Virus record (IMG/VR): IMGVR_UViG_3300042691_017437 | Span: 1-30,444 of that record | Direction: 5' to 3' (one strand) | From: a virus | DNA: 30,444 nucleotides | Part shown: positions 3,500 through 21,782 of the stretch, piece by piece | Numbering within the stretch: the stretch's first letter is position 1 | Layout: the number at the start of each line of letters is the position of its first letter | Made by a program: the position numbers and the translations under genes | Notes under the pieces: model-generated | Seen by the model: only the letters and a program-made list of their open reading frames with translations | Told to the model about the DNA's origin: nothing | Databases searched by the model: none

Positions 3500-3757
3500 T
3501 CAGTTGTCGTTTGCCGTTCGAACGTATTGAACGGTTCTGCGGATGTCGCCGGCCAGCTCTTCGTTGCCGCTATGGGTAACGATGTCAGCCGCGCACAGCA
3601 TTCCGGCTTGAAACGCGTCTCGGACGCTTTCGCTGATCTGCTGGTTGGCCACTTCGACCGAAATCACGGCGCCATCTCTCGACTTCAGCAGCCAGGCCAG
3701 CACACGGCCAGCAAGCCCGCCGAGCGCGATCACGCCGACGATTTCTAGTGGTGTCAT
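3500..3757 (-). CDS. Small protein with N-terminal membrane segment
   Basis: This 85-residue protein starts MTPLEIVGVIALGGLAGRVL, and residues 4-24 form a hydrophobic segment able to span the membrane. The remaining 60 residues are soluble, helical and charged. AGGAGG lies 4 nt before the ATG. The ATG overlaps the TGA of the 26-residue frame upstream as ATGA. A membrane-anchored regulatory or superinfection-type role is possible but is not shown by the sequence. Confidence 0.65.
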   Translation of the reverse strand: MTPLEIVGVIALGGLAGRVLAWLLKSRDGAVISVEVANQQISESVRDAFQAGMLCAADIVTHSGNEELAGDIRRTVQYVRTANDN

Positions 3758-9282: not shown

Positions 9283-9394
9283 GCCCCTGCGACGCTTCTT
9301 CAGCAAACTCGTTGAGTGGTTCCCGCTACCCACCGACGACGAGATGGATCGCGTCTTCAATTCACCCACACGCTCACATGCCCGTAGACCTTGA
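9275..9394 (+). CDS. Possible 39-residue overlapping gene
   Basis: A GTG overlapping the VRR-NUC stop opens a frame of 39 residues (VSEPLRRFFSKLVEWFPLPT, then DDEMDRVF and a basic tail). It ends 17 nt inside the primase gene. The fill of the gap and the amphipathic first helix suggest a real small gene, but the only support is position and composition. If it is not translated, the 95-bp gap before the primase contains nothing else that I can identify. Confidence 0.35.
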   Translation: MSEPLRRFFSKLVEWFPLPTDDEMDRVFNSPTRSHARRP

Positions 9395-12300
9395 TTCCGC
9401 TCGCCAGTTCCTCGCCGCCCTCGGCAAACCCAGAGGCACCACTCGCCTCCGCGGCTTCTATGCCAAGACTGACCCGCGCAAGGCCACTGATCACGGCGCA
9501 AAGGGTGACCCCAGCAAGGCGCTGATTGAGTCCTGGGTGGCCGATGGCCGCGGCGTCTACGTCGTCATCAACAACGGCGGTGACAAGGATGCCGACATCA
9601 CAGAGTGCATCGCCCTCTTCTGCGAGTGGGACGATCGGCCCAAGGACTGGCAGGTCACCGCATGGAAAGAGCTCGGCCTGCCCGAGCCCACCATTCAGGT
9701 CGACACCGGTGGCAAGTCCATCCACAACTACTGGGTCCTCTCCGGCCCCGTCAGCCCCGAGATCTGGAAGCCCATCCAGACCCGCTTGCTTGATTACGCC
9801 GACGCTGATCGGCAGCTCAAGAACCCCAGTCGGGTCATGCGCCTGCCCGGCACCCCGCACCCGGAGACCGGGGAGCTGGCCCAGCTGATCCACCTCTCGG
9901 ATGCCCGCTACTCGATCACCGAATTCGCCGCGACCATGCCGGTGCCGGTAGTCGACACCCGCATCGAGCAAGCCCGCAGGTTCACCGACTACGAAGCCCA
10001 GGGCCTCGACGAGATCCAGCGGGCACTGCAGGCCATCCCTCCGCGGGTGCCAGGCGGTAACACCTACCCCATGTACCGCAACATCCTCTGGGGTCTGATC
10101 GCTGCCGTCGAAGAGGCCGGCAGCTCGGCCGCCACCGCCATGTCGATGATGGCCTCGCACTCACCTCAGTGGCATGGCATCGATCAGGTGGCCGGCTCCG
10201 GTGGTGACGACGTTGCTGCTGGCACTTTTTGGTACTGGGCCAACCAGCATGGCTACCGGGCACCACGACGCGTCAAGCCGGGCCCGGCCGAGCTGCGCAA
10301 CTTGCCCCACAACTTGCCCCCCAAATCAGAGCCTGCTCATGGGCCAGCTGAAACCGCTGATCCAGAGCCGGATCTCGAGGATGACGCCCCCGATCCAGGG
10401 CCTGCCGCTTCCCTCCCATTTCGCCCCCTCGGCTTCGATCACGGCATCTACTACTACCTGCCGCGTAACGCCTGCCAGGTCATTCCGCTCACCGCCGCAC
10501 AGCACAACAAGTCCCACTTCCTGCAGCTCGCACCCCTCGAGTGGTGGGCTAACGGCTTTGCCAACGACAACGGTCGCATCGACTGGGATTCGGCCGTCAA
10601 CGCCATCCTCGGCTCTTGCATCACGCAGGGTGTCTACGACCCCTCCCGTGTCCGTGGCCGCGGGGCCTGGGCTGATGCTTCACGCGTCATCCTCCACCTC
10701 GGCAATCGCCTCGTGATTGACGGCCGCTCACACCAGATCACCAAGCTGCCAATCGATTTCAAGAGCTTCTACTTCTACGAAAACGCCAAGGCGATCGATG
10801 GGCCCGGCCGCGACATCCTCTCCGACGAGCTCGCCGCCAAGGTGCGGGTCATCGCCGAGCGCTTTCGCTGGGAGACACCGGCCAGCGCCAACCTGCTCCT
10901 CGGCTGGATCGTCCTCGCACCCGTTTGTGGCGCCCTGGACTGGCGGCCACACATCTGGGTGACCGGTGGCGCCGGCACCGGCAAGGCCCAGCCACACTCT
11001 GCGAATGTGCTCACCCCGACCGGTTGGCGATGTATGGGCGACATTGAGGTTGGGGACTTGGTCTCCACGCCGGACAACGGCTTCGCAAGAGTTCGCGGAA
11101 AGTACCCGCAGGGACAGCAGTTGACCTACCGGATCACATTCGCTGATGGCCGCTCGACCCGTGCTACCGCAGACCATCTCTGGAAAGTTCGCGTCAAGCA
11201 CTGCTGGCGGATCCGCACCACTGACGAGATGGCCGAGATTCTCGCCACCGAAACCCGGCAATCCCGCAGCCTCGCAGTCCCCCTCTGCCACGCAATGACC
11301 GTTCGCAACGGTGGGGCTACCTCGCTTCTGCCGCTGCACCCATACGCGCTTGGCGTCATGCTCGGCGACGGCTCGTTTGTTGAGGGCGGTGGCAACAACC
11401 TCACCGTCTTCGATTCGGAAATCGTCGGCCGGGCTCGTCAGTGTCTCGAGGGATCACCTTTTAACTTCTTCGACACGAACGTCGGCGGCCGGTATCGTCT
11501 CGGTGATCTGTCGCGCTACGGAAAGCAAACCAGGCAGACGATCAAGGATCTGAGGCTCCTGGGCACGCACTCCGACACAAAATTCATTCCTCGCGCCTAC
11601 CTCGAGGCCTCGATCGACGACCGCATCGAGTTGCTCAAGGGCCTCATGGACACAGACGGCACAGCCGAAAAGACCGGTGGCATCAGCTTCTGCACGGTGT
11701 CCGAGCAACTGCGTGATGACGTTGTCGAACTCGTTCGCTCACTGGGTGGCATCGCCAAAGTCAGCGTGAAGCAGCCCTCCTATACCCACAATGGCGAACG
11801 GCGCCAAGGCAGGACCGCCTTTATCATCGGCATTCGGCTGCCCGACCCCACCATCGCTTTCTCGTTGCCGCGCAAGCTAGAGCGGATCTCGCCCAACTAC
11901 CAGTACGCCGACTGCCTCTATCTCAACGTCGTGTCGATCGAACCGGACGCGCCCGAGGAGTGCTCCTGCATCGCCATCGATCACCCCGATCGGCTCTACG
12001 TGACTGACGACTTCGTGGTGACCCACAACACCACCATCCTCAAGTCCTTCATGAAACCGCTGCTCGGTGGCATGTTCGAGGGTGCCACCGGCGGCACCAC
12101 CGAGGCCGGCCTTCGCGGTCAACTTCGCTCTGACGCTATCCCGGTGGTGTTCGACGAACTCGAGCAGAACGAGCAGAAAGACAAGCAGCAAGTTCAGAAC
12201 ATCCTCGCCCTTGCACGCATCGCATCTTCGGAAGGCGGCAAGATTTACAAAGGCACAACTTCTGGCGGGTCAAACACATTTGAGATCCGCTCTATGTTCT

Positions 12301-13064
12301 GCTGCAGCTCCATCAACGTCGCTCTGATTCAACGCGCCGACCTCGATCGCTTTTGCGTACTTGGCCTGCGCAAGGATCACATGGACAAGGATGACTGGAA
12401 TGAATTTGAACAGCAAATCCTGAGCAACTGCACCGAAGAGAACGGCCGTCAGCTGGTGGCACGCACTCTCCAGCAGATCCCGACAATCCGCAAGAACGCC
12501 AAGACACTCGCGGCGGCCCTGTCACGCCGCTTCGGCCAGCGATTCGGCGATCAGTACGGCACCCTGCTGGCTGGCGCCTGGACGCTCGAGCCGGCTGGTG
12601 GCGGTGAACTTTCGCTGCAGCAGGCCATTGAGTGGATCAGCATGATGGACTGGGAAAGCCGCGAGGTGGACGCCACCGATGCGGATGAGGTGAAGTGCAT
12701 CAGCCACATCCTCCAGGCGCTGGTGCAGGTGGATGGCGGCAAGCGCATGTCGGTGCTTGAGCTCGTCCAGATGGCTCAGCGCGGCGTCATCTTCGCCGTC
12801 TACGGCCGGGACCAGCCCTCCGATGAGGTCGAGACGATCCTGGGCCGCTACGGGCTGCGGGTGACCGGTGGCGCCCTGGCGGTGGCCAACAACAACACCA
12901 ACCTGCAGAGCCTGCTGCGGGACACCCCATGGGCCGGCAACGCGTACCGGCAGTCTCTCAGGCGCCTTAACGGGGCTTCGGTGAGCGCTGGGACGGTCCG
13001 GTTCAAGGGAAGCGGTGTCGCTCGCGCAACTTTGGTCCCACTTGAGACGCTTGAGACTGTGTAA
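9378..13064 (+). CDS. Primase-helicase split by an intein
   Basis: The precursor has 1,228 residues, or 880 after splicing. The first 300 residues resemble RepB/AEP-type primases: CIALFCEWDDRP supplies acidic catalytic residues and IQVDTGGKSIHNYWVL the conserved His region. A Pro-rich linker follows near residues 325-350. The C-terminal part is a helicase of the D5/DUF927 or P4-alpha type with Walker A GGAGTGK-(intein)-TT and Walker B IPVVFDELEQ. The ATG at 9378 starts the first conserved segment (MPVDLDSARQFLAALG). The protein likely primes and unwinds at the phage origin. It is the last gene of the replication operon. Confidence 0.87.
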   Translation: MPVDLDSARQFLAALGKPRGTTRLRGFYAKTDPRKATDHGAKGDPSKALIESWVADGRGVYVVINNGGDKDADITECIALFCEWDDRPKDWQVTAWKELGLPEPTIQVDTGGKSIHNYWVLSGPVSPEIWKPIQTRLLDYADADRQLKNPSRVMRLPGTPHPETGELAQLIHLSDARYSITEFAATMPVPVVDTRIEQARRFTDYEAQGLDEIQRALQAIPPRVPGGNTYPMYRNILWGLIAAVEEAGSSAATAMSMMASHSPQWHGIDQVAGSGGDDVAAGTFWYWANQHGYRAPRRVKPGPAELRNLPHNLPPKSEPAHGPAETADPEPDLEDDAPDPGPAASLPFRPLGFDHGIYYYLPRNACQVIPLTAAQHNKSHFLQLAPLEWWANGFANDNGRIDWDSAVNAILGSCITQGVYDPSRVRGRGAWADASRVILHLGNRLVIDGRSHQITKLPIDFKSFYFYENAKAIDGPGRDILSDELAAKVRVIAERFRWETPASANLLLGWIVLAPVCGALDWRPHIWVTGGAGTGKAQPHSANVLTPTGWRCMGDIEVGDLVSTPDNGFARVRGKYPQGQQLTYRITFADGRSTRATADHLWKVRVKHCWRIRTTDEMAEILATETRQSRSLAVPLCHAMTVRNGGATSLLPLHPYALGVMLGDGSFVEGGGNNLTVFDSEIVGRARQCLEGSPFNFFDTNVGGRYRLGDLSRYGKQTRQTIKDLRLLGTHSDTKFIPRAYLEASIDDRIELLKGLMDTDGTAEKTGGISFCTVSEQLRDDVVELVRSLGGIAKVSVKQPSYTHNGERRQGRTAFIIGIRLPDPTIAFSLPRKLERISPNYQYADCLYLNVVSIEPDAPEECSCIAIDHPDRLYVTDDFVVTHNTTILKSFMKPLLGGMFEGATGGTTEAGLRGQLRSDAIPVVFDELEQNEQKDKQQVQNILALARIASSEGGKIYKGTTSGGSNTFEIRSMFCCSSINVALIQRADLDRFCVLGLRKDHMDKDDWNEFEQQILSNCTEENGRQLVARTLQQIPTIRKNAKTLAAALSRRFGQRFGDQYGTLLAGAWTLEPAGGGELSLQQAIEWISMMDWESREVDATDADEVKCISHILQALVQVDGGKRMSVLELVQMAQRGVIFAVYGRDQPSDEVETILGRYGLRVTGGALAVANNNTNLQSLLRDTPWAGNAYRQSLRRLNGASVSAGTVRFKGSGVARATLVPLETLETV
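10986..12029 (+). other. Ala1-type intein with LAGLIDADG homing endonuclease
   Basis: The intein comprises 348 residues inserted between the Lys and Thr of the helicase Walker A. It starts with Ala (AQPHSANVLTPTGW), not Cys or Ser, and ends TDDFVVTHN, with Thr as the +1 extein residue. Block A (NVLTPTGWRCMGDIEVGD), block B (TADHLW), block F (IAIDHPDRLYVTDDF) and block G (THN) are visible. The two endonuclease motifs LGVMLGDGS and LLKGLMDTDG keep their acidic residues, so the homing endonuclease looks intact. The frame is continuous with the host protein on both sides. Confidence 0.92.
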
Positions 13065-15469: not shown

Positions 15470-15664
15470 ATGGCCACCACCTACATCACCAAAGCCACCC
15501 GCGCCCGCATCATCGACAGCATGATCGACGCCATGCTTGAAGTGGGCGACATCAGCGAGGCTCAGATCGCCGAGACTGAGGCCTGGCTGGCTGGCCTGAG
15601 CAATTCTGAGCTCAAGTGCGAATGCGACGACCGATGCCCTGAAGAGTGGAGCCGACTGGCATGA
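15470..15664 (+). CDS. Small helical protein, paralogue A
   Basis: The gene encodes 64 residues starting MATTYITKATRARIIDSMID. Residues 13-50 (MLEVGDISEAQIAETEAWL) share a pattern with the next gene: an acidic GDI-x-E-x-QI turn between two helices and a DEL/SEL end. The C-terminus adds CECDDRCPEE, two Cys pairs that could bind a metal. The two genes overlap as ATGA. The function is unknown. Confidence 0.65.
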   Translation: MATTYITKATRARIIDSMIDAMLEVGDISEAQIAETEAWLAGLSNSELKCECDDRCPEEWSRLA

Positions 15665-15843
15665 CACACGATGAACGGATTGACGCTGTTGCGACCCTTG
15701 TGGCCGTAATGGTGAAAAGCGGCGACATCTTCGAGGATCAGATGATCGAACTGCGCAACGACCTGATGACCGCCACCGACGACGAACTGATGGAGGCTTG
15801 CCTCGAGTATTCCTTTGGGGACTTGCGGGGGGTCGGTTTTTAA
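15661..15843 (+). CDS. Small helical protein, paralogue B
   Basis: It encodes 60 residues starting MTHDERIDAVATLVAVMVKS. The stretch GDIFEDQMIELRNDLM matches the GDISEAQIAETEAWL stretch of its upstream neighbour, so the two are tandem paralogues. The Cys-rich tail of the first is absent here. Its last eight codons lie in the first unit of the 26-bp tandem repeat that follows, so part of the C-terminus comes from repeat DNA. It starts at an ATGA overlap. Confidence 0.6.
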   Translation: MTHDERIDAVATLVAVMVKSGDIFEDQMIELRNDLMTATDDELMEACLEYSFGDLRGVGF

Positions 15844-15872
15844 GGGACTTGCAAGGGGTCGGTTCTTTAGGG
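15821..15872. repeat. 26-bp tandem duplication
   Basis: Two 26-bp units (15821-15846 and 15847-15872) begin ACTTGC and contain GGGGTCGGTT followed by a T-run and AGGG. They differ at a few positions. The first unit covers the end of the coding sequence of the upstream gene. Confidence 0.65.
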
Positions 15873-15913
15873 GTGTTTTTACACACGGCTGGGGGTGGTT
15901 TTTAGGCCACCCC
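15855..15913. repeat. Degenerate 54-bp element, copy B, with a hairpin
   Basis: Positions 15855-15908 align with copy A at 14583-14640. The end of the copy includes GGGGTGG (15892-15898) and CCACCCC (15907-15913), a 7-bp stem with an 8-nt T-rich loop. A weak terminator for the small-gene operon is possible, though the T-run is in the loop. Confidence 0.45.
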
Positions 15914-15935
15914 GCTATATACAAAATCTTTGATT

Positions 15936-15998
15936 AGTACATTTGTACTATAGTACATTTGTACTGTAGTACATTTGTACTATTAGTACATTTGTACT
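15936..15998. repeat. Four iterated palindromes, AGTACATTTGTACT
   Basis: The same 14-bp sequence, with arms AGTACA and TGTACT around TT, occurs at 15936, 15952, 15968 and 15985. Start-to-start spacing is 16, 16 and 17 bp. All four are identical in the 14-bp core. This is AT-rich and without a gene. It has the look of operator or replication iterons. Confidence 0.75.
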
Positions 15999-16023
15999 AT
16001 TTGTGTCAAGATCTAAAACAGTG

Positions 16024-16073
16024 CTGTTTGCAAGTAATGCAAACTGCGCTGTTTGTAATTAACTCAAACTGCG
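16024..16073. repeat. 25-bp tandem repeat with inverted repeats
   Basis: Two directly abutting 25-bp units (16024-16048, 16049-16073) share the outer bases CTGTTTG and CAAACTGCG. The first contains GTTTGCA-N5-TGCAAAC, a 7-bp dyad; the second keeps GTTTG-N9-CAAAC. Each unit could bind one dimer. Confidence 0.7.
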
Positions 16074-16125
16074 GTGCACGGTTGGGTGCATCGGGTGCGG
16101 TGCACGGTTAGGTGCATCGGGTGCG
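16074..16125. repeat. 26-bp tandem repeat with inverted repeats
   Basis: Two abutting 26-bp units (16074-16099, 16100-16125) differ at one base. Each contains TGCAC-N6-GTGCA. The first unit directly abuts the preceding 25-bp array. From 16126 to 16371 I see CpG-rich DNA with no supported gene; ACCGGCGAACC occurs twice there (about 16300 and 16362). Confidence 0.75.
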
Positions 16126-16371
16126 GTGCCGCGCGGCGAACGTTTCGCGACGTTGCGCACGCTTGACGGATCGCCGGCCCGCGTGGTTCGCGCGTACGCG
16201 CTCCGCTGATCGGCGATCGCGTCGACGTGACTAGGTGATCGCGTCGGCATGCCGTCACGTTCGCCGACGGTGCCGTGCATGTCGCAACGCGGCCGACCGG
16301 CGAACCGTCACACGTGCTAGGTGCACGCGCGCTGATCGATCGGTAGGATTTGCGCACGCCAACCGGCGAAC

Positions 16372-16390
16372 CTTTTACCGCTTGCATGCC
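16372..16390 (+). promoter_or_regulatory. Pyrimidine-rich leader, copy 2
   Basis: CCTTTTACCGCTTGCATGCC immediately precedes ATG 16391, matching the other leaders except for the TGCA insert-like end. Confidence 0.5.
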
Positions 16391-17407
16391 ATGACACAAA
16401 CCCTCCCCAAAGGCGCGCAGCGCGTCGCCGACCGCGCCGGCGTCGCATCGGTGCACGCCGAATCCGGCTGCGCGTTCGGCGGCCGCTCTTATGTCGCATA
16501 CGCGGCGCCCGGTTACTGGTTCCCTGCGGTTGAATGCGGCACCGTGATCGCGTCAACCGTGCGCGAGCTCGCCGACTACGCGCGGCCGGCGCTGATTCCG
16601 GCCGACATGCCGACGCCGTCAGGATGCACGCCGGCCGAACCCGTCGCCGAACCGATCGAACCGACCGCGCGCGCCGCATGGCACGCGGCGCCGGCTGGCG
16701 TCGACGTGGTGCCGTTCGCGTCGGTTTCTGACGCGGTGCGGTTTGAAACCGCGGCGCTATTCGACGCGCGCCGTTACGCGCGCTCTGGCGCTGCCGACGG
16801 TCGCGCGGTGCTCGGCACCGTCGCCGACGGCGTCCGTTGGCGCGTTGCCGACGCCGTCGCCGACGCTGCCGACGGTTACCACGCCGACGCCGTCGCCGTT
16901 GTTGTGCTGGCGTCCGGCAACGCTGCTGACGCGGAAACGCTGCAGTTTGCCGGCGTTTCATACGTTCGCGCCGGCGATGGCGCTGAAGACTGCGACGCCG
17001 CGTTTTTGGCGTCGCATGCCGGCGCGCCGTCGCGCGACTTTGAAACAGTCGCCGACGCGCTCGCGCACGCTGCCGGCCGCGCCGTGCGCCGCTCGCCGGT
17101 GCTGCCGGGGGAGCATGCCGCGCCGGTGCTGCCGTCGCACGGCGACCGCGCGCCGGTGCTGCCGGTGCTGCCGGTGCTGCCGGGGGATCCCGGCTACGCT
17201 GCCGCGTGCTACGCGCTGCCGGTCAAACCGGCACCGCTGCGCAAAGCCGCAACGCTGCGCGCGCTCGCCGCTCGCGTCACGTCGCCGGCGTTCGCCGCTG
17301 ATCTGATCGCGCGCGCTGATCGCTTGGAAGCGATCGCCGACGGCGTGCCGCTCGCCGACCGCGTAACGCAACGCGCGTACGATCACGCGCCGCTGATTAC
17401 GCGCTGA
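16391..17407 (+). CDS. Ala-rich unknown protein of the CpG-rich island
   Basis: The 338-residue protein starts MTQTLPKGAQRVADRAGVAS. Residues 10-65 form a compact N-terminal part with GCAFGGRSYVAYAAPGYWFP. The middle is rich in Ala, Asp and Val. A Pro-Val-Leu-Pro repeat lies near residues 238-264. The end is a helix with LRALAARVTSPAFAADLIA, like a short coiled region. The codons favour GCG, CCG, TCG and GAA, unlike the genes on either side. The start follows the conserved leader. It is the first of four island genes. No family is recognised. Confidence 0.65.
   Translation: MTQTLPKGAQRVADRAGVASVHAESGCAFGGRSYVAYAAPGYWFPAVECGTVIASTVRELADYARPALIPADMPTPSGCTPAEPVAEPIEPTARAAWHAAPAGVDVVPFASVSDAVRFETAALFDARRYARSGAADGRAVLGTVADGVRWRVADAVADAADGYHADAVAVVVLASGNAADAETLQFAGVSYVRAGDGAEDCDAAFLASHAGAPSRDFETVADALAHAAGRAVRRSPVLPGEHAAPVLPSHGDRAPVLPVLPVLPGDPGYAAACYALPVKPAPLRKAATLRALAARVTSPAFAADLIARADRLEAIADGVPLADRVTQRAYDHAPLITR
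17153..17179 (+). repeat. CCGGTGCTG triplication
   Basis: Three exact copies of the 9-mer CCGGTGCTG encode three Pro-Val-Leu units inside the island gene. Copy number could vary by slippage. Confidence 0.6.
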
Positions 17408-17420
17408 TCATTCCCGCAAA

Positions 17421-17448
17421 CCTTTACCACTTACCTGCCATGCAAACC
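17421..17448 (+). promoter_or_regulatory. Pyrimidine-rich leader, copy 3
   Basis: This 28-bp block, TTTACCACTTACCTGCC followed by the ATG and the next eight coding bases, is identical to the one at 17804-17831. It has no Shine-Dalgarno. Confidence 0.7.
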
Positions 17449-17604
17449 CTTTACAGGATCGAAACGTTCGCCGGCACCGTCGCCGGTTGGCTGCCGGCGT
17501 CGCCGGCCGCGGTGCCGCTCGCCGTCGCCGAACGGCGCGCGCACCTTTACCGCGCGGTGCGTGGTGATTTGCGCCTGTTCCGCGTTGCGCCGGTGCTGCC
17601 GTGA
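17440..17604 (+). CDS. 54-residue island protein
   Basis: A frame of 54 residues starts MQTLYRIETFAGTVAGWLPA and ends LRLFRVAPVLP. The island codon style (GCG, CCG, GTC) is clear. It is basic and contains two possible strands around a central Ala-rich helix. Its end overlaps the GTG of the next gene as GTGA, which supports a real frame. The start follows the leader. No function is assigned. Confidence 0.6.
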   Translation: MQTLYRIETFAGTVAGWLPASPAAVPLAVAERRAHLYRAVRGDLRLFRVAPVLP

Positions 17605-17792
17605 CAAACCGTCAACCGCTCGAAACGGTGCGCAACGCCGACGGCGTCGCCGTCGGTTTGATCGCCGCGCCGACGGCAGCCGATCGCGCGATGCTCGCCG
17701 GAATTCTCAAACGCTACGCGGCCGACTACGCGGCCGGCGCGGTCGGCATTGTCGGACCCTACGGCACGTGGCGCGTTTCAGATCGCCACTAG
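17601..17792 (+). CDS. 63-residue island protein
   Basis: The frame starts at GTG (VTNRQPLETVRNADGVAVGL), overlapping the preceding TGA as GTGA. The protein has a helix with RAMLAGILKRYAADYAAG and a Gly-rich ending (GAVGIVGPYGTWRVSDRH). A fold of two strands and one helix is likely. It ends 11 bp before the conserved leader of the next gene. No family is recognised. Confidence 0.6.
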   Translation: MTNRQPLETVRNADGVAVGLIAAPTAADRAMLAGILKRYAADYAAGAVGIVGPYGTWRVSDRH

Positions 17793-17803
17793 CACAAACA
17801 AAC

Positions 17804-17831
17804 CCTTTACCACTTACCTGCCATGCAAACC
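17804..17831 (+). promoter_or_regulatory. Pyrimidine-rich leader, copy 4
   Basis: The block is identical over 28 bp to copy 3. It precedes the large island gene that starts at 17823. Confidence 0.7.
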
Positions 17832-18902
17832 GCAACCACAACCGGCGCAGCTCGCCGCAACGCGCCGGCCAACGTGCCGGCCGACGTTCGCGAGCTGCTA
17901 ACCACGTATCGGCTACAGCTCGCCGACTTGCTAACCACTTCAAACCCGAAACTTCTAAAGGGTTCGGAGCGCGTGCACAGTGCCATCCTTCACCACTTGC
18001 CAGAGCGCGCTCTGGCGCGCGCGATTAACCCTGTAACCGTCGGCAGCACCGCGCCGCGCGGTTACGTGCCGGCGTTGCGCGAGCTCGCCGAACAAACCGG
18101 CACGATCGGCCGCGCGAGCGTGCACAACGGTTGCGCGTTCGCCACGGCCGGATGTTCAGCCGCTTGTCTGGCAGGTTCCGGCCATGGGGGGCTCTCAGTC
18201 GACGTGACGGCGTGCCGCGGCCGGCGCACGCTTGCCATGCTCGCCGACGCTGAAACGTACGCGCGCGCCATTCTTTGGGCGATCGCGCGCGAGCATGCGC
18301 GCGCTGCCGGCCGCATGCTCGCCGTGCGGCTACGCGGCACCGATGAAACGCCGTGGCATGTTCGCCGGTTCGCGCTGCCACTTGCCGACGCCGTCGCGAT
18401 CCGTCGCCGGTTTGGCTTAACGATCGATCACGGCGACGCCGTCACGATGGCCGACGCGCTCGCGACCGCGCGCGCCGACGGTTCTGCCGTTCTGTACGAC
18501 TACAGCAAAGCGCCGGTGCACGGTCCGCTCGGATTGATCGCGCAGCGCGCGGCCGGCTGGCACGTTACGGCGTCGTTCGCCGCTGATCGCGCGACCGCGT
18601 GCGCCGACGCGCTCGCCGCGGCCGCTGCCGGGTTCGCCGTCGCCGTGCCGATCGCGTTACCTAAAGGCGCACCGCTGCCGGCCCGAATGCTGATCAGCAC
18701 CGGCGGCAGCACCGCGGCGCTGCGCGTGGTTGACGGCGACGCGACTGATCACCGTTTCACCGATGGCGCGGCCGGCGTCGCGATCGTGCTGCGCGAGAAA
18801 CGCGCGCGCGGTGCTGATCGATCGATCGCCGACCGTTTCATTGTGCCGGCCGCGCCGATCGTGCGTCTCGCCGACGGCGCCGTGCAATGGTTGCCGGCGT
18901 GA
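17823..18902 (+). CDS. Phage-conserved Cys-cluster protein (YDYTK / GDxTD family)
   Basis: This 359-residue protein matches a broad phage family of unknown function. The shared motifs are TSNPKLLKGS (residues 39-48), a Cys cluster with NGCAFATAGCSAACL and SGHGG (about 99-120), RLRGTDETPW (about 175), VLYDYSKAP (about 222), and VVDGDATDHRF (about 300). In other phages these read like vRLNGTSDipW, YDYTK and VDGDATDlRF. The Cys cluster suggests metal or iron-sulfur binding. The fold is often thought to be a TIM-like barrel, but I cannot confirm that. The codon use is that of the island. It ends 459 bp before the small terminase gene. Confidence 0.75.
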   Translation: MQTATTTGAARRNAPANVPADVRELLTTYRLQLADLLTTSNPKLLKGSERVHSAILHHLPERALARAINPVTVGSTAPRGYVPALRELAEQTGTIGRASVHNGCAFATAGCSAACLAGSGHGGLSVDVTACRGRRTLAMLADAETYARAILWAIAREHARAAGRMLAVRLRGTDETPWHVRRFALPLADAVAIRRRFGLTIDHGDAVTMADALATARADGSAVLYDYSKAPVHGPLGLIAQRAAGWHVTASFAADRATACADALAAAAAGFAVAVPIALPKGAPLPARMLISTGGSTAALRVVDGDATDHRFTDGAAGVAIVLREKRARGADRSIADRFIVPAAPIVRLADGAVQWLPA

Positions 18903-18916
18903 TTACCGATCGGTAA
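18903..18916. repeat. Perfect 14-bp palindrome after the island
   Basis: TTACCGATCGGTAA starts at the base after the stop codon of the preceding gene. It is a possible binding site and contains CGATCG. Confidence 0.55.
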
Positions 18917-18921
18917 AGTCT

Positions 18922-19022
18922 AAGCGCCGCGCTTAATCGCGCGGCGCTTCTGTATGCGCCGACGTGCTAAGCGTCGGCGTTTCTGTATGCGCCGGCGCGT
19001 GATCGTGCCGGCGTTTCTGTAT
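18922..19022 (+). repeat. Three tandem hairpins with compensating stem changes
   Basis: Three units (18924-18955, 18956-18988, 18989-19022; 32, 33 and 34 nt) each begin GCGCCG, form a stem-loop, and end TTTCTGTAT or TTCTGTAT. The first stem is AAGCGCCGCGC with GCGCGGCGCTT (11 bp, 6-nt loop). The second pairs CGCCGACG with CGTCGGCG. The third pairs a CGCCGGC arm with GCCGGCG-type sequence. The stem bases differ, yet pairing is kept. The first may act as a terminator (U-poor). Confidence 0.7.
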
Positions 19023-19064
19023 GCGATCGCCAGCCAATCGCGCGGCGATCGCGCGGCGATTGGC
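19023..19064. repeat. Long imperfect palindrome with two GCGATCGC
   Basis: GCCAATCGC (19033-19041) and GCGATTGGC (19056-19064) form 9-bp arms around a GCGATCGC centre (19045-19052). Another GCGATCGC is at 19023-19030. This octamer is the HIP1 element of cyanobacteria. Confidence 0.65.
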
Positions 19065-19102
19065 GCGCGCCGCAGCCAGCCGGTCGGCCCGGACACGCCG
19101 CC

Positions 19103-19152
19103 ACGATACAACACTATCGTGATAGCGTGGGTCCCTCTGGCCGCAGGGACTC
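19103..19152. promoter_or_regulatory. Operator-like dyad and a stem-loop
   Basis: ACGATA-N6-TATCGT (19103-19120) overlaps CTATC-GT-GATAG (19114-19125). It is followed by GGGTCCCT paired with AGGGACTC (19129-19152, 8-nt loop, one GU pair). Either could be part of a packaging site or a control region. The rest of 19153-19209 shows nothing that I can interpret. Confidence 0.4.
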
Positions 19153-19209
19153 GCGGGTTGATTCGAATCTCGTTATTTATCTAGGCATCAGCGCACGAAG
19201 TTAGTTCAG

Positions 19210-19235
19210 GTCTCACGGGTCTCATCTGCGTCTCA
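19210..19235 (+). repeat. Three GTCTCA repeats upstream of terS
   Basis: GTCTCA occurs at 19210, 19219 and 19230 (spacing 9 and 11). Three spaced short repeats next to a Nu1-like gene recall the R sites of the lambda cosB region, though the sequence is different. Confidence 0.4.
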
Positions 19236-19322
19236 CGCAATACCTCCCCTTTACCCGTCAACTGGGCAACCGGCCATATTACTCTCCAGGACTGGGTTTC
19301 AGCGCCTGGTGTCAACCAGAAC

Positions 19323-19347
19323 TGTAAACCTGTAACCTTGGTTTACA
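19323..19347. promoter_or_regulatory. Inverted repeat before terS
   Basis: TGTAAACC (19323-19330) and GGTTTACA (19340-19347) are perfect 8-bp arms with a 9-nt spacer. The repeat ends 13 bp before the proposed TTG start of the small terminase gene. It could be an operator or a hairpin that affects initiation. Confidence 0.5.
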
Positions 19348-19360
19348 CAGCCGGCAAACC

Positions 19361-19936
19361 TTGCCGCTCATCACGAAGTCAGAAGCAGCCGACGCCCTCG
19401 GGGTGTCCAGGACGGCCGTCTACAAGGCGATCAAGCAGGGCCGCTTGCCCGTCGTTCGCACGGCGGACGGCCGCGAGCTGATCAAATCTGAGACCCTGCG
19501 CGAGGACTGGTTCGCCAACACCATGCAGAAGATCGGCAGGGGCCCCAAGCCACCTGCTGGTGAGAAAGCATTCCCGCCGCCGCGGCCAAAGCCTCAGCCG
19601 GAGGAGCAGGAGCTCCCAGTTGAAGAGCCAAAGCGCGAGCAATCACTCGCAGCACCAGAGCCTGGCGACATCGTCCCCGAGTACAACGAGAGCCGAGCCC
19701 GCACCGAGTACCTGAAAGCCGAGCTGCTTGAGCTCGAGCGGAAGGAGAAGGAAGGGCTGCTGGTGCGGTCCGCTGATGTTCAGGCGAAGTGGGTGGAGGT
19801 GATTACCATCAGCCGCACCAAGGTGCTCGGGGTGGTGTCAAAGGCCAAGCAGCGGATCCCGGATCTCACCCAGGATCAGATCGCGATCCTCGAGGACATC
19901 ATTCGCGAGGCGCTGGAGGAGCTGGCCGATGGCTGA
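19361..19936 (+). CDS. Terminase small subunit (Nu1-like)
   Basis: The 191-residue protein starts at a TTG (LPLITKSEAADALGVSRTAV). The first 50 residues form a winged helix of the Nu1/MerR-like type: EAADALGVSRTAVYKAIKQG then LPVVRTADGRELI. A Pro- and Glu-rich linker lies at residues 60-110, and a long helical part (YLKAELLELERKEKEGLLV) follows. The pattern suits a DNA-recognition subunit that selects the packaging site. There is no in-frame ATG or GTG close upstream and no Shine-Dalgarno. It overlaps the large subunit gene by 8 nt. Confidence 0.85.
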   Translation: MPLITKSEAADALGVSRTAVYKAIKQGRLPVVRTADGRELIKSETLREDWFANTMQKIGRGPKPPAGEKAFPPPRPKPQPEEQELPVEEPKREQSLAAPEPGDIVPEYNESRARTEYLKAELLELERKEKEGLLVRSADVQAKWVEVITISRTKVLGVVSKAKQRIPDLTQDQIAILEDIIREALEELADG

Positions 19937-21782
19937 GGTTTCGGACCTGGCCAGGGAGGCGCTGCGAGCGTGGAAGCCACCGGATAAGCTGACGCTGAGC
20001 GAGTGGGCTGATCGGCACTTTTACCTGTCGGCCGAGAGCAGCGCCGAGGCTGGACGGTGGCACACGCTGCCGTACCAGAAGGGGATCATGGATGCGATAA
20101 CAGATCCAAGTATTGAACAAATAAGTGTGATGAAATCTGCACGTGTTGGATATACCAAGTGCTTAAATGCGTGCATTGCATTTCATATTCATCAAGATCC
20201 TTGTCCAATGATGTTGGTGCAGCCAACCATTGAAGACGCACAAGGATATTCCAAAGAAGAAATTGCCCCGATGCTGCGCGATACCCCCGTGCTGCGTGGG
20301 CTTGTCAGCGAGAGCAAGGCGAAGGACGGAGCCAACACGATCCTGCAGAAGCAGTATCCGGGCGGAACGCTGGGCCTGGTGGGGGCGAACAGTCCGCGAG
20401 GTTTCCGTCGTGTGAGCCGGCGGATCGTGATGTTTGACGAGACGGACGGCTACCCACCGAGCGCCGGGCCTGAAGGCGACCAGATCAAGCTGGGCATCAG
20501 GCGGACGGAGTATTACTGGAACCGCAAGATCATTGCTGGGTCGACGCCGACGCTGAAGGACGCGAGCCGGATTGAGCGGTTGTTCGCCCAGGGTGATCAG
20601 CGGCGGTATTTCGTGCCCTGCCCCGACTGCGACCACATGCAATACCTGAAGTGGTCGCACATGCGATGGGACGACCAGTATTCACCGGTGCATTACGTGT
20701 GCGAGCAGTGCGGCGTGCTGATCCCGCACTCGAAGAAGCGTTGGATGGTGGAGCGCGGCAAGTGGCGTGCGACGGCACCAGGCAACGGGAAGCATGCCTC
20801 GTTCCATGTCTGGGCGGCGTACAGCTACAGCCCGAATGCGAGCTGGGACAACCTGCGCGATGAGTTTCTGGAGGCGAAGAGCGACCCGGAGGCGCTGAAG
20901 ACGTTCGTCAACACCGTGCTCGGCGAGAGCTGGGAAGACGATTATGCGGCGAAGGTCGGCGCCGACAGCCTGCTCGAGCGTGCTGAGTTCTACGAGCACC
21001 GAATGATTCCGGCCGAGGCATCAGCGCTGACGATCGGCTGCGACGTTCAGGACAACAGGTTGAGTTTGAGCGTGTGGGCATGGGGCCGCGAGGAAGAAGG
21101 CTGGCTGATCGATCGCCAGGTGATCCACGGAGATCCCAGCCGGCCAGAGCCGTGGAAGCAGCTGGACGAGATTTTGCTGCGACCGTTCAAGCATGCGCTC
21201 GGCGGTGAGCTGCGGCCAGACGTGGTGTGCATCGACTCGGGCGGTCACCACACGATGGAGGTGTACCAGTACGCGAGGGAGCGCCAGAACATGGGCGTGA
21301 TTGCGATCAAGGGTCAGAGCCAGAAGGGCAAACCACCGATCGGCAAAGCCACCAAGGTGGATTTGAACATCAAGGGCAAGGCGTTGAAGAAAGGCGCCGA
21401 GGTGTACCCGGTTGGTAGCGACACGGTGAAGAGCCTGCTGTTTGGCCGGCTGAAGCACAACGAGCCGGGCCCTGGGTTCCTGCACTTCTACGCGGAGGCG
21501 GGGAAGGAGTATTTCGAGGAGCTGACGGCAGAGAAGCAGATTACGCGGTTTGTGCGCGGGTATCCCGAGAGAGTTTGGGTAAAGAAATCAAGCCAACGGA
21601 ACGAAGCGTTGGATGAACTGGTTTATGCGTATTCAGCGTTAAATCGGATGTATCAAAAGTATGATCGCAGAACGATCTGGGATCAGCTGGAGAAACGGCT
21701 TGAAAAGCCCATGGAAAGGGAGCGCAAGACGCCGCTAAGATCGAATAAGCCCGCAAAACGGAGCTTTGTCCGCCAGTGGTGA
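19929..21782 (+). CDS. Terminase large subunit (GpA type)
   Basis: The 617-residue protein is a lambda gpA-like terminase. The Walker A variant VMKSARVGYTK is at residues 67-77; this KSARVGY form is typical of GpA. The Walker B-like MFDETDGYP is near 165. The zinc-binding CPDCDHM, then a CEQCG pair, lies near 235 and 260. The nuclease part contains VVCIDSGGHHTMEVY (near 435). It drives DNA translocation and end cutting together with the small subunit. Segments 20094-20262 and about 21570-21780 are much poorer in G+C than the rest of the gene. Confidence 0.95.
   Translation: MAEVSDLAREALRAWKPPDKLTLSEWADRHFYLSAESSAEAGRWHTLPYQKGIMDAITDPSIEQISVMKSARVGYTKCLNACIAFHIHQDPCPMMLVQPTIEDAQGYSKEEIAPMLRDTPVLRGLVSESKAKDGANTILQKQYPGGTLGLVGANSPRGFRRVSRRIVMFDETDGYPPSAGPEGDQIKLGIRRTEYYWNRKIIAGSTPTLKDASRIERLFAQGDQRRYFVPCPDCDHMQYLKWSHMRWDDQYSPVHYVCEQCGVLIPHSKKRWMVERGKWRATAPGNGKHASFHVWAAYSYSPNASWDNLRDEFLEAKSDPEALKTFVNTVLGESWEDDYAAKVGADSLLERAEFYEHRMIPAEASALTIGCDVQDNRLSLSVWAWGREEEGWLIDRQVIHGDPSRPEPWKQLDEILLRPFKHALGGELRPDVVCIDSGGHHTMEVYQYARERQNMGVIAIKGQSQKGKPPIGKATKVDLNIKGKALKKGAEVYPVGSDTVKSLLFGRLKHNEPGPGFLHFYAEAGKEYFEELTAEKQITRFVRGYPERVWVKKSSQRNEALDELVYAYSALNRMYQKYDRRTIWDQLEKRLEKPMERERKTPLRSNKPAKRSFVRQW

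Follow-up and report, generated by a model that had tools for sequence, protein, structure and literature searches.

Tandem hairpins between a GP88-like gene and the cohesive end of an uncultured phage genome are very probably stacked intrinsic terminators

Introduction

Close to the packaging genes of an uncultured phage, at positions 18922-19064 of the 30,444-nucleotide DNA analysed here (the window), lies a short repeat whose copies differ in their stem bases while keeping the pairing. What is such a repeat for? A preliminary description, made from the sequence alone, proposed that it is selected for structure and not for sequence, and named an RNA structure array, a transcription stop or a DNA site for packaging as possible roles. 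At the level of listings and abstract openings, a literature search yielded no description of the array.

Results

Gene neighbourhood and affiliation

The array starts 20 nt past the stop codon of a GP88-like gene (17823-18902, + strand; phrog_1617, E = 3.6e-26; PF17338, E = 1.1e-8) and lies on the same strand. This gene is the last one of a rightward operon before the cohesive end (cos) of the phage. The first gene to the right of cos is terS (19361-19936, + strand; phrog_57, E = 1.9e-25), which is followed by a terL of the GpA type (19929-21782, + strand; phrog_15; PF05876 and PF20454) and by genes for a head-tail joining protein, the portal and the major head protein. The array was thus correctly described as adjoining the packaging genes. 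Elsewhere in the window, varied tandem repeats, partly palindromic, are clustered at 15818-16129 (four copies of TAGTACATTTGTACTA, AAACAGCGCTGTTTGCAAGTAACGC and two 26-nt repeats); it may represent an origin or an operator. A primase-helicase-like ORF of 1250 aa (9312-13064) apparently carries a LAGLIDADG intein inserted in its Walker A motif (GTGK, then AQPHS to VVTHN, then TT).

A comparison of terL with named phages gave 791 matches, all below 60% identity; the best 30 of them, with Synechococcus phage S-LBS1 and Roseobacter phages at the top, reach up to 47%. No match to the GP88-like protein was found in the phage collection, and a search of genome_contigs for relatives of terL likewise came up empty. 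A GP88 relative does occur on one MAG contig, L143, which is labelled Gammaproteobacteria; this is too weak as an indication of the host. Around position 3590, as judged by eye, this contig is identical to the related locus L016 until just past the first hairpin and its tail and then diverges, at either a chimeric assembly or a real junction.

Three hairpins with strand-specific tails

The units follow each other head to tail at 18924-18955 (32 nt), 18956-18988 (33 nt) and 18989-19022 (34 nt). Hairpin 1 (18922-18955 with its tail, + strand) has a stem of 11 bp at 18922-18949 and a loop of 6 nt, hairpin 2 (18956-18988, + strand) a stem of 10 bp at 18956-18980 and a loop of 5 nt, and hairpin 3 (18989-19022, + strand) a stem of 11 bp at 18989-19014 and a loop of 4 nt. 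The stems are perfect or near-perfect, and each is followed by (T/C)TTCTGTAT; TTCTGTAT occurs three times in the window, every copy inside the array. Folding of each unit, the check proposed at the outset, gave minimum free energies of -22.7, -18.3 and -22.6 kcal/mol for units 1, 2 and 3 (z about -4 each), which none of 200 shuffles equalled. Among 2000 dinucleotide shuffles of 18903-19155, not one contained three such hairpins (1950 had none, 49 had one and 1 had two). The tandem arrangement of 32-34 nt units is confirmed. The sequences reported to flank all units on both sides turned out to be parts of this architecture: GCGCCG, which is common to the units, is the 5′ arm of the outer stem, and the common 3′ flank combines the opposite arm with the tail. 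The 3′ flank is not uniform, however, since units 2 and 3 end in TTTCTGTAT but unit 1 in CTTCTGTAT.

All three units have a stable G+C-rich hairpin with a short loop and, directly after the stem, a U-rich tract. The tract is imperfect, with 5 T in 8 positions per unit (UUUCUGUAU). The + strand carries the T-rich tails of all three hairpins; on the minus strand a T-rich stretch (4/8) is found for unit 1 only. A pattern-based terminator scan called units 2 and 3 and missed unit 1. A search of the window against Rfam returned no match above the gathering score.

Compensating changes in the stems

Because a MAFFT alignment of the three units set the stems out of register, the inner pairs were counted arm by arm with a script. 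Stem pairs 1-6 are nearly constant across the units, pair 1 being G-C or G-T. Pairs 7-9 vary with compensation (C-G/A-T/G-C, G-C/C-G/C-G and C-G/G-C/G-T across the units), and all nine cells are paired. This result, nine of nine inner pairs when each arm is combined with its own partner, is equalled by 4 of 216 column-wise permutations, and random local bases would reach full inner pairing with P ~ 3e-4. The stem bases do differ while pairing persists, as had been noticed, and the pairing exceeds what the high GC content leads one to expect. Swapping the arms of units 2 and 3 still leaves 8 of 9 inner pairs, and the strength of the covariation therefore comes mainly from unit 1 against the other two. 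Taken alone, the covariation among three units is modest evidence.

The palindrome at 19023-19064

The long palindrome reported to follow the array is present and consists of two 9-bp inverted repeats whose arms interleave (19023-19031/19044-19052 and 19033-19041/19056-19064). It has no T tail and perhaps lies outside the stack. One 9-bp arm pair occurred in 60 of 1000 shuffles and two in 1 of 1000. As an RNA fold it is not significant (z -1.3, equalled by 19 of 200 shuffles) and, given also the absent T tail, we ruled it out as a fourth terminator. Its GCGATCGC motif was considered as a cyanobacterial iterated palindrome; it is not enriched in the window (5 copies found, 5.25 expected), and this identity was discarded as well. 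The segment 19023-19100 aligns locally with two relatives, L016 (z 9.0) and L023 (z 7.5). L016 retains a 9-bp arm pair with altered sequence; in L023, judged by eye, the right arm is not retained. Candidate explanations for the palindrome are a site bound by a protein, a degraded fourth unit, or no function at all.

Hairpins downstream of GP88 in relatives

The comparison with relatives covered 23 non-redundant loci, namely the window, L016 and 21 of 24 GP88 loci; two near copies of L101 (L107, L108) and one locus cut at its contig end (L117) were left out. At least one T-tailed hairpin lies within 300 nt of the stop codon, on the GP88 strand, in 21 of the 23 loci, so that the place after the 3′ end of the gene and the strand are both kept. 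The first hairpin begins 15-76 nt past the stop in 19/23 loci; in L103 and L114 the sole hairpin is distant (209 and 175 nt), and L115 and L116 have no such hairpin within the 300 nt. In total, 34 hairpins were found on the same strand. The opposite strand had 10, and 200 shuffles gave 1.17 on average and at most 4; the palindromic hairpins of L095, L096, L098 and L110 were scored twice by the scan, once per strand.

Stacks on the GP88 strand recur in 6 of the 23 loci according to the scan, with three hairpins each in the window, L102 and L105 and two each in L016, L104 and L118; second hairpins were seen by eye in L100, L101, L109 and L112. Inside a genome the tails are alike (TTTGTTGTATC in L104 and L105, TTTTGTTGTGCC and TTTGCTGTGCC in L102), and the recurring stacks have unrelated stems between genomes. 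Pairwise comparisons by eye showed a C-G pair exchanged for G-C in hairpin 2 of L095 versus L096, a pair that is only half-changed in L110 and there forms a counter-example; in L109, an A.C mismatch of L101 has become A-T and one G-C has become G-T. In local alignments with eight relatives, the array of the window was not alignable (z -1.2 to 4.4), whereas the sequence left of cosN reached z 8.6-17.2 in 5/8 and that to its right z 49-68 in 6/8. A search of viral_contigs with the tail pattern returned four loci (L082-L085), whose flanks, inspected by eye, contain no comparable array.

One subclade separates the hairpin from cos. In L095, L096 and L110, cos lies 522-557 nt from the GP88 stop and the hairpin is still found 26 nt past the stop. 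Between GP88 and cos these genomes carry a small minus-strand ORF (49 aa in L110; by eye in L095 and L096), and L098, where cos was not found, has a similar ORF of 53 aa downstream of GP88. Among the loci read, this convergent ORF of about 49-53 aa occurs only in these four. The second hairpin of L095, L096 and L110 has a T-rich tail on the minus strand and would serve the small convergent gene.

Related phages have thus kept the stems; their decay would have spoken against the initial proposal. The relatives keep structure, strand and place and do not keep sequence, and we judge the proposed selection for structure to be right.

The cohesive end

Contig ends were mapped in 80 terL relatives taken from viral contigs. 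In 27 of the 80, the contig start is the base matching window position 19156; 24 of these begin exactly 26 nt 5′ of a conserved TAGGCA. Included in the 27 are L033, L039 and L044, which start at the cos base after a stretch resembling a sequencing adapter. Three further contigs start one base off. Contig G014 starts with GGTTAATTCGAAT (L025) and has the same 13 nt at its end (L091), and 4 of 11 right ends examined fall at cos (L102, L105, which is on the same contig as L091, L108 and L118). From these traces, the linear virion DNA is deduced to end in a cohesive overlap of 12-13 nt. The contig ends mark cosN at 19156-19168, a separate neighbour of the array, and hence place the array at the right chromosome end, 134 nt before the terminus.

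Several smaller elements surround cos. Three GTCTCA motifs lie to its right at about 19210-19236 (by eye), and an inverted repeat, GGGTCCCT..AGGGACTC, immediately to its left. Further left, at 19102-19121, is a dyad CACGATA/TATCGTG, in whose position L016, L023 and L046 seem to carry a differently lettered dyad; it is perhaps a protein site or a cosQ-like element. Several GAGAATGATTCTCATT palindromes occur within the last 200 nt left of cos in the subclade of L017, L018 and L110, and GATTCTCA is also found near cos in L104, L105 and L118.

Discussion

Judged from sequence features, the array very probably represents three stacked intrinsic (Rho-independent) terminators of the + strand, which close the rightward operon at the right-hand end of the virion chromosome. 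The strand-specific T tails, the position after the stop codon and the recurrence in relatives without sequence conservation argue for the transcription stop among the roles first considered; keeping structure, strand and gene association but not sequence is the mark of terminators. Polymerase leaving the GP88-like gene would transcribe the G+C-rich hairpins one by one, each with a short, imperfect U tract behind it. Given these tracts (5 T in 8), single units may be weak. Each would end part of the transcripts, and few would get past all three. The ribosome at the stop codon may hinder the first hairpin, which is only 20 nt away. According to a published study, terminator tR2 has next to no activity when it lies within several base pairs of a gene, and it becomes stronger with distance (PMC4824070). 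Stacking would offset both the imperfect U tracts and the closeness of the first hairpin to the stop codon, and once the genome circularises through cos, the stack would shield cos, terS and the late genes from read-through transcription. The units presumably arose by tandem duplication, after which the inner stems would have drifted by compensatory change.

The position of the array, 134 nt left of the cohesive end and in the part of the chromosome that is packaged last, would also suit a DNA element whose hairpins extrude or bind terminase and thereby help packaging to end at cos, as a cosQ-like or accessory site. Such a site should keep a conserved sequence and a constant spacing to the cohesive end. 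The sequence, copy number and distance to cos of the array instead vary among relatives while the flanks of cos are conserved, in L095, L096 and L110 the hairpin has remained beside GP88, some 500 nt from cos, and T tails confined to one strand would make no sense in a DNA site. The cosQ of lambda-like phages, by contrast, is described in PMC4669245 as 7 bp long and highly conserved. We have dropped the packaging role, which we regard as very unlikely, on account of this non-conservation and because in some relatives a gene separates the array from cos. That the units encode, or are processed into, a small structured RNA, with the stems as protection or product and termination as a side effect, is more doubtful still: the stable folds with compensating changes that speak for it are equally expected of terminators, Rfam matches none of it, and loop and sequence are not conserved between relatives. 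An RNA structure array as a separate function thus finds no support beyond what terminators provide.

A further possibility leaves the hairpins as terminators and makes them conditional. Late in infection, a phage antiterminator would let polymerase pass the three hairpins and continue beyond cos to terS and the late genes, and the stack would be the early-to-late gate of an uncharacterised phage lineage whose late genes are reached only via antitermination. The late genes do come next and in the same direction, and no promoter-like site was found at 15500-20500 in a scan that covers the sigma-70 type only. No antiterminator or nut/put-like site was identified, without a dedicated search, and weak but plain terminators account for the anatomy. 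We consider the gate improbable; if true, it would be a new early/late switch.

With plain stacked terminators as the preferred reading, an odd-looking repeat becomes ordinary gene punctuation, and in this uncultured lineage terminators before cos would retain structure and position as their sequence changes. The analysis also produced a single-base position for cos, derived from contig ends, and a map of the genome with terS and terL at the left end and GP88 at the right end.

Two known systems can be compared. Like lambda-like cos regions, the phage has a 12-13 nt cohesive end beside terS, and terS starts about 205 nt right of cos with repeated GTCTCA motifs in between; the cohesive end of lambda is given as 12 nt in PMC4669245. 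The hairpin array lies outside this region, in which the subsites are assigned by position only. With tandem intrinsic terminators, the array shares the G+C-rich hairpin, short loop and U-rich tail, the location directly after a stop codon, the strand specificity and the presence of several in series. It differs from them in that its units are near-copies that have their outer pairs and tails in common and diverge at the inner pairs, and in its imperfect U tract.
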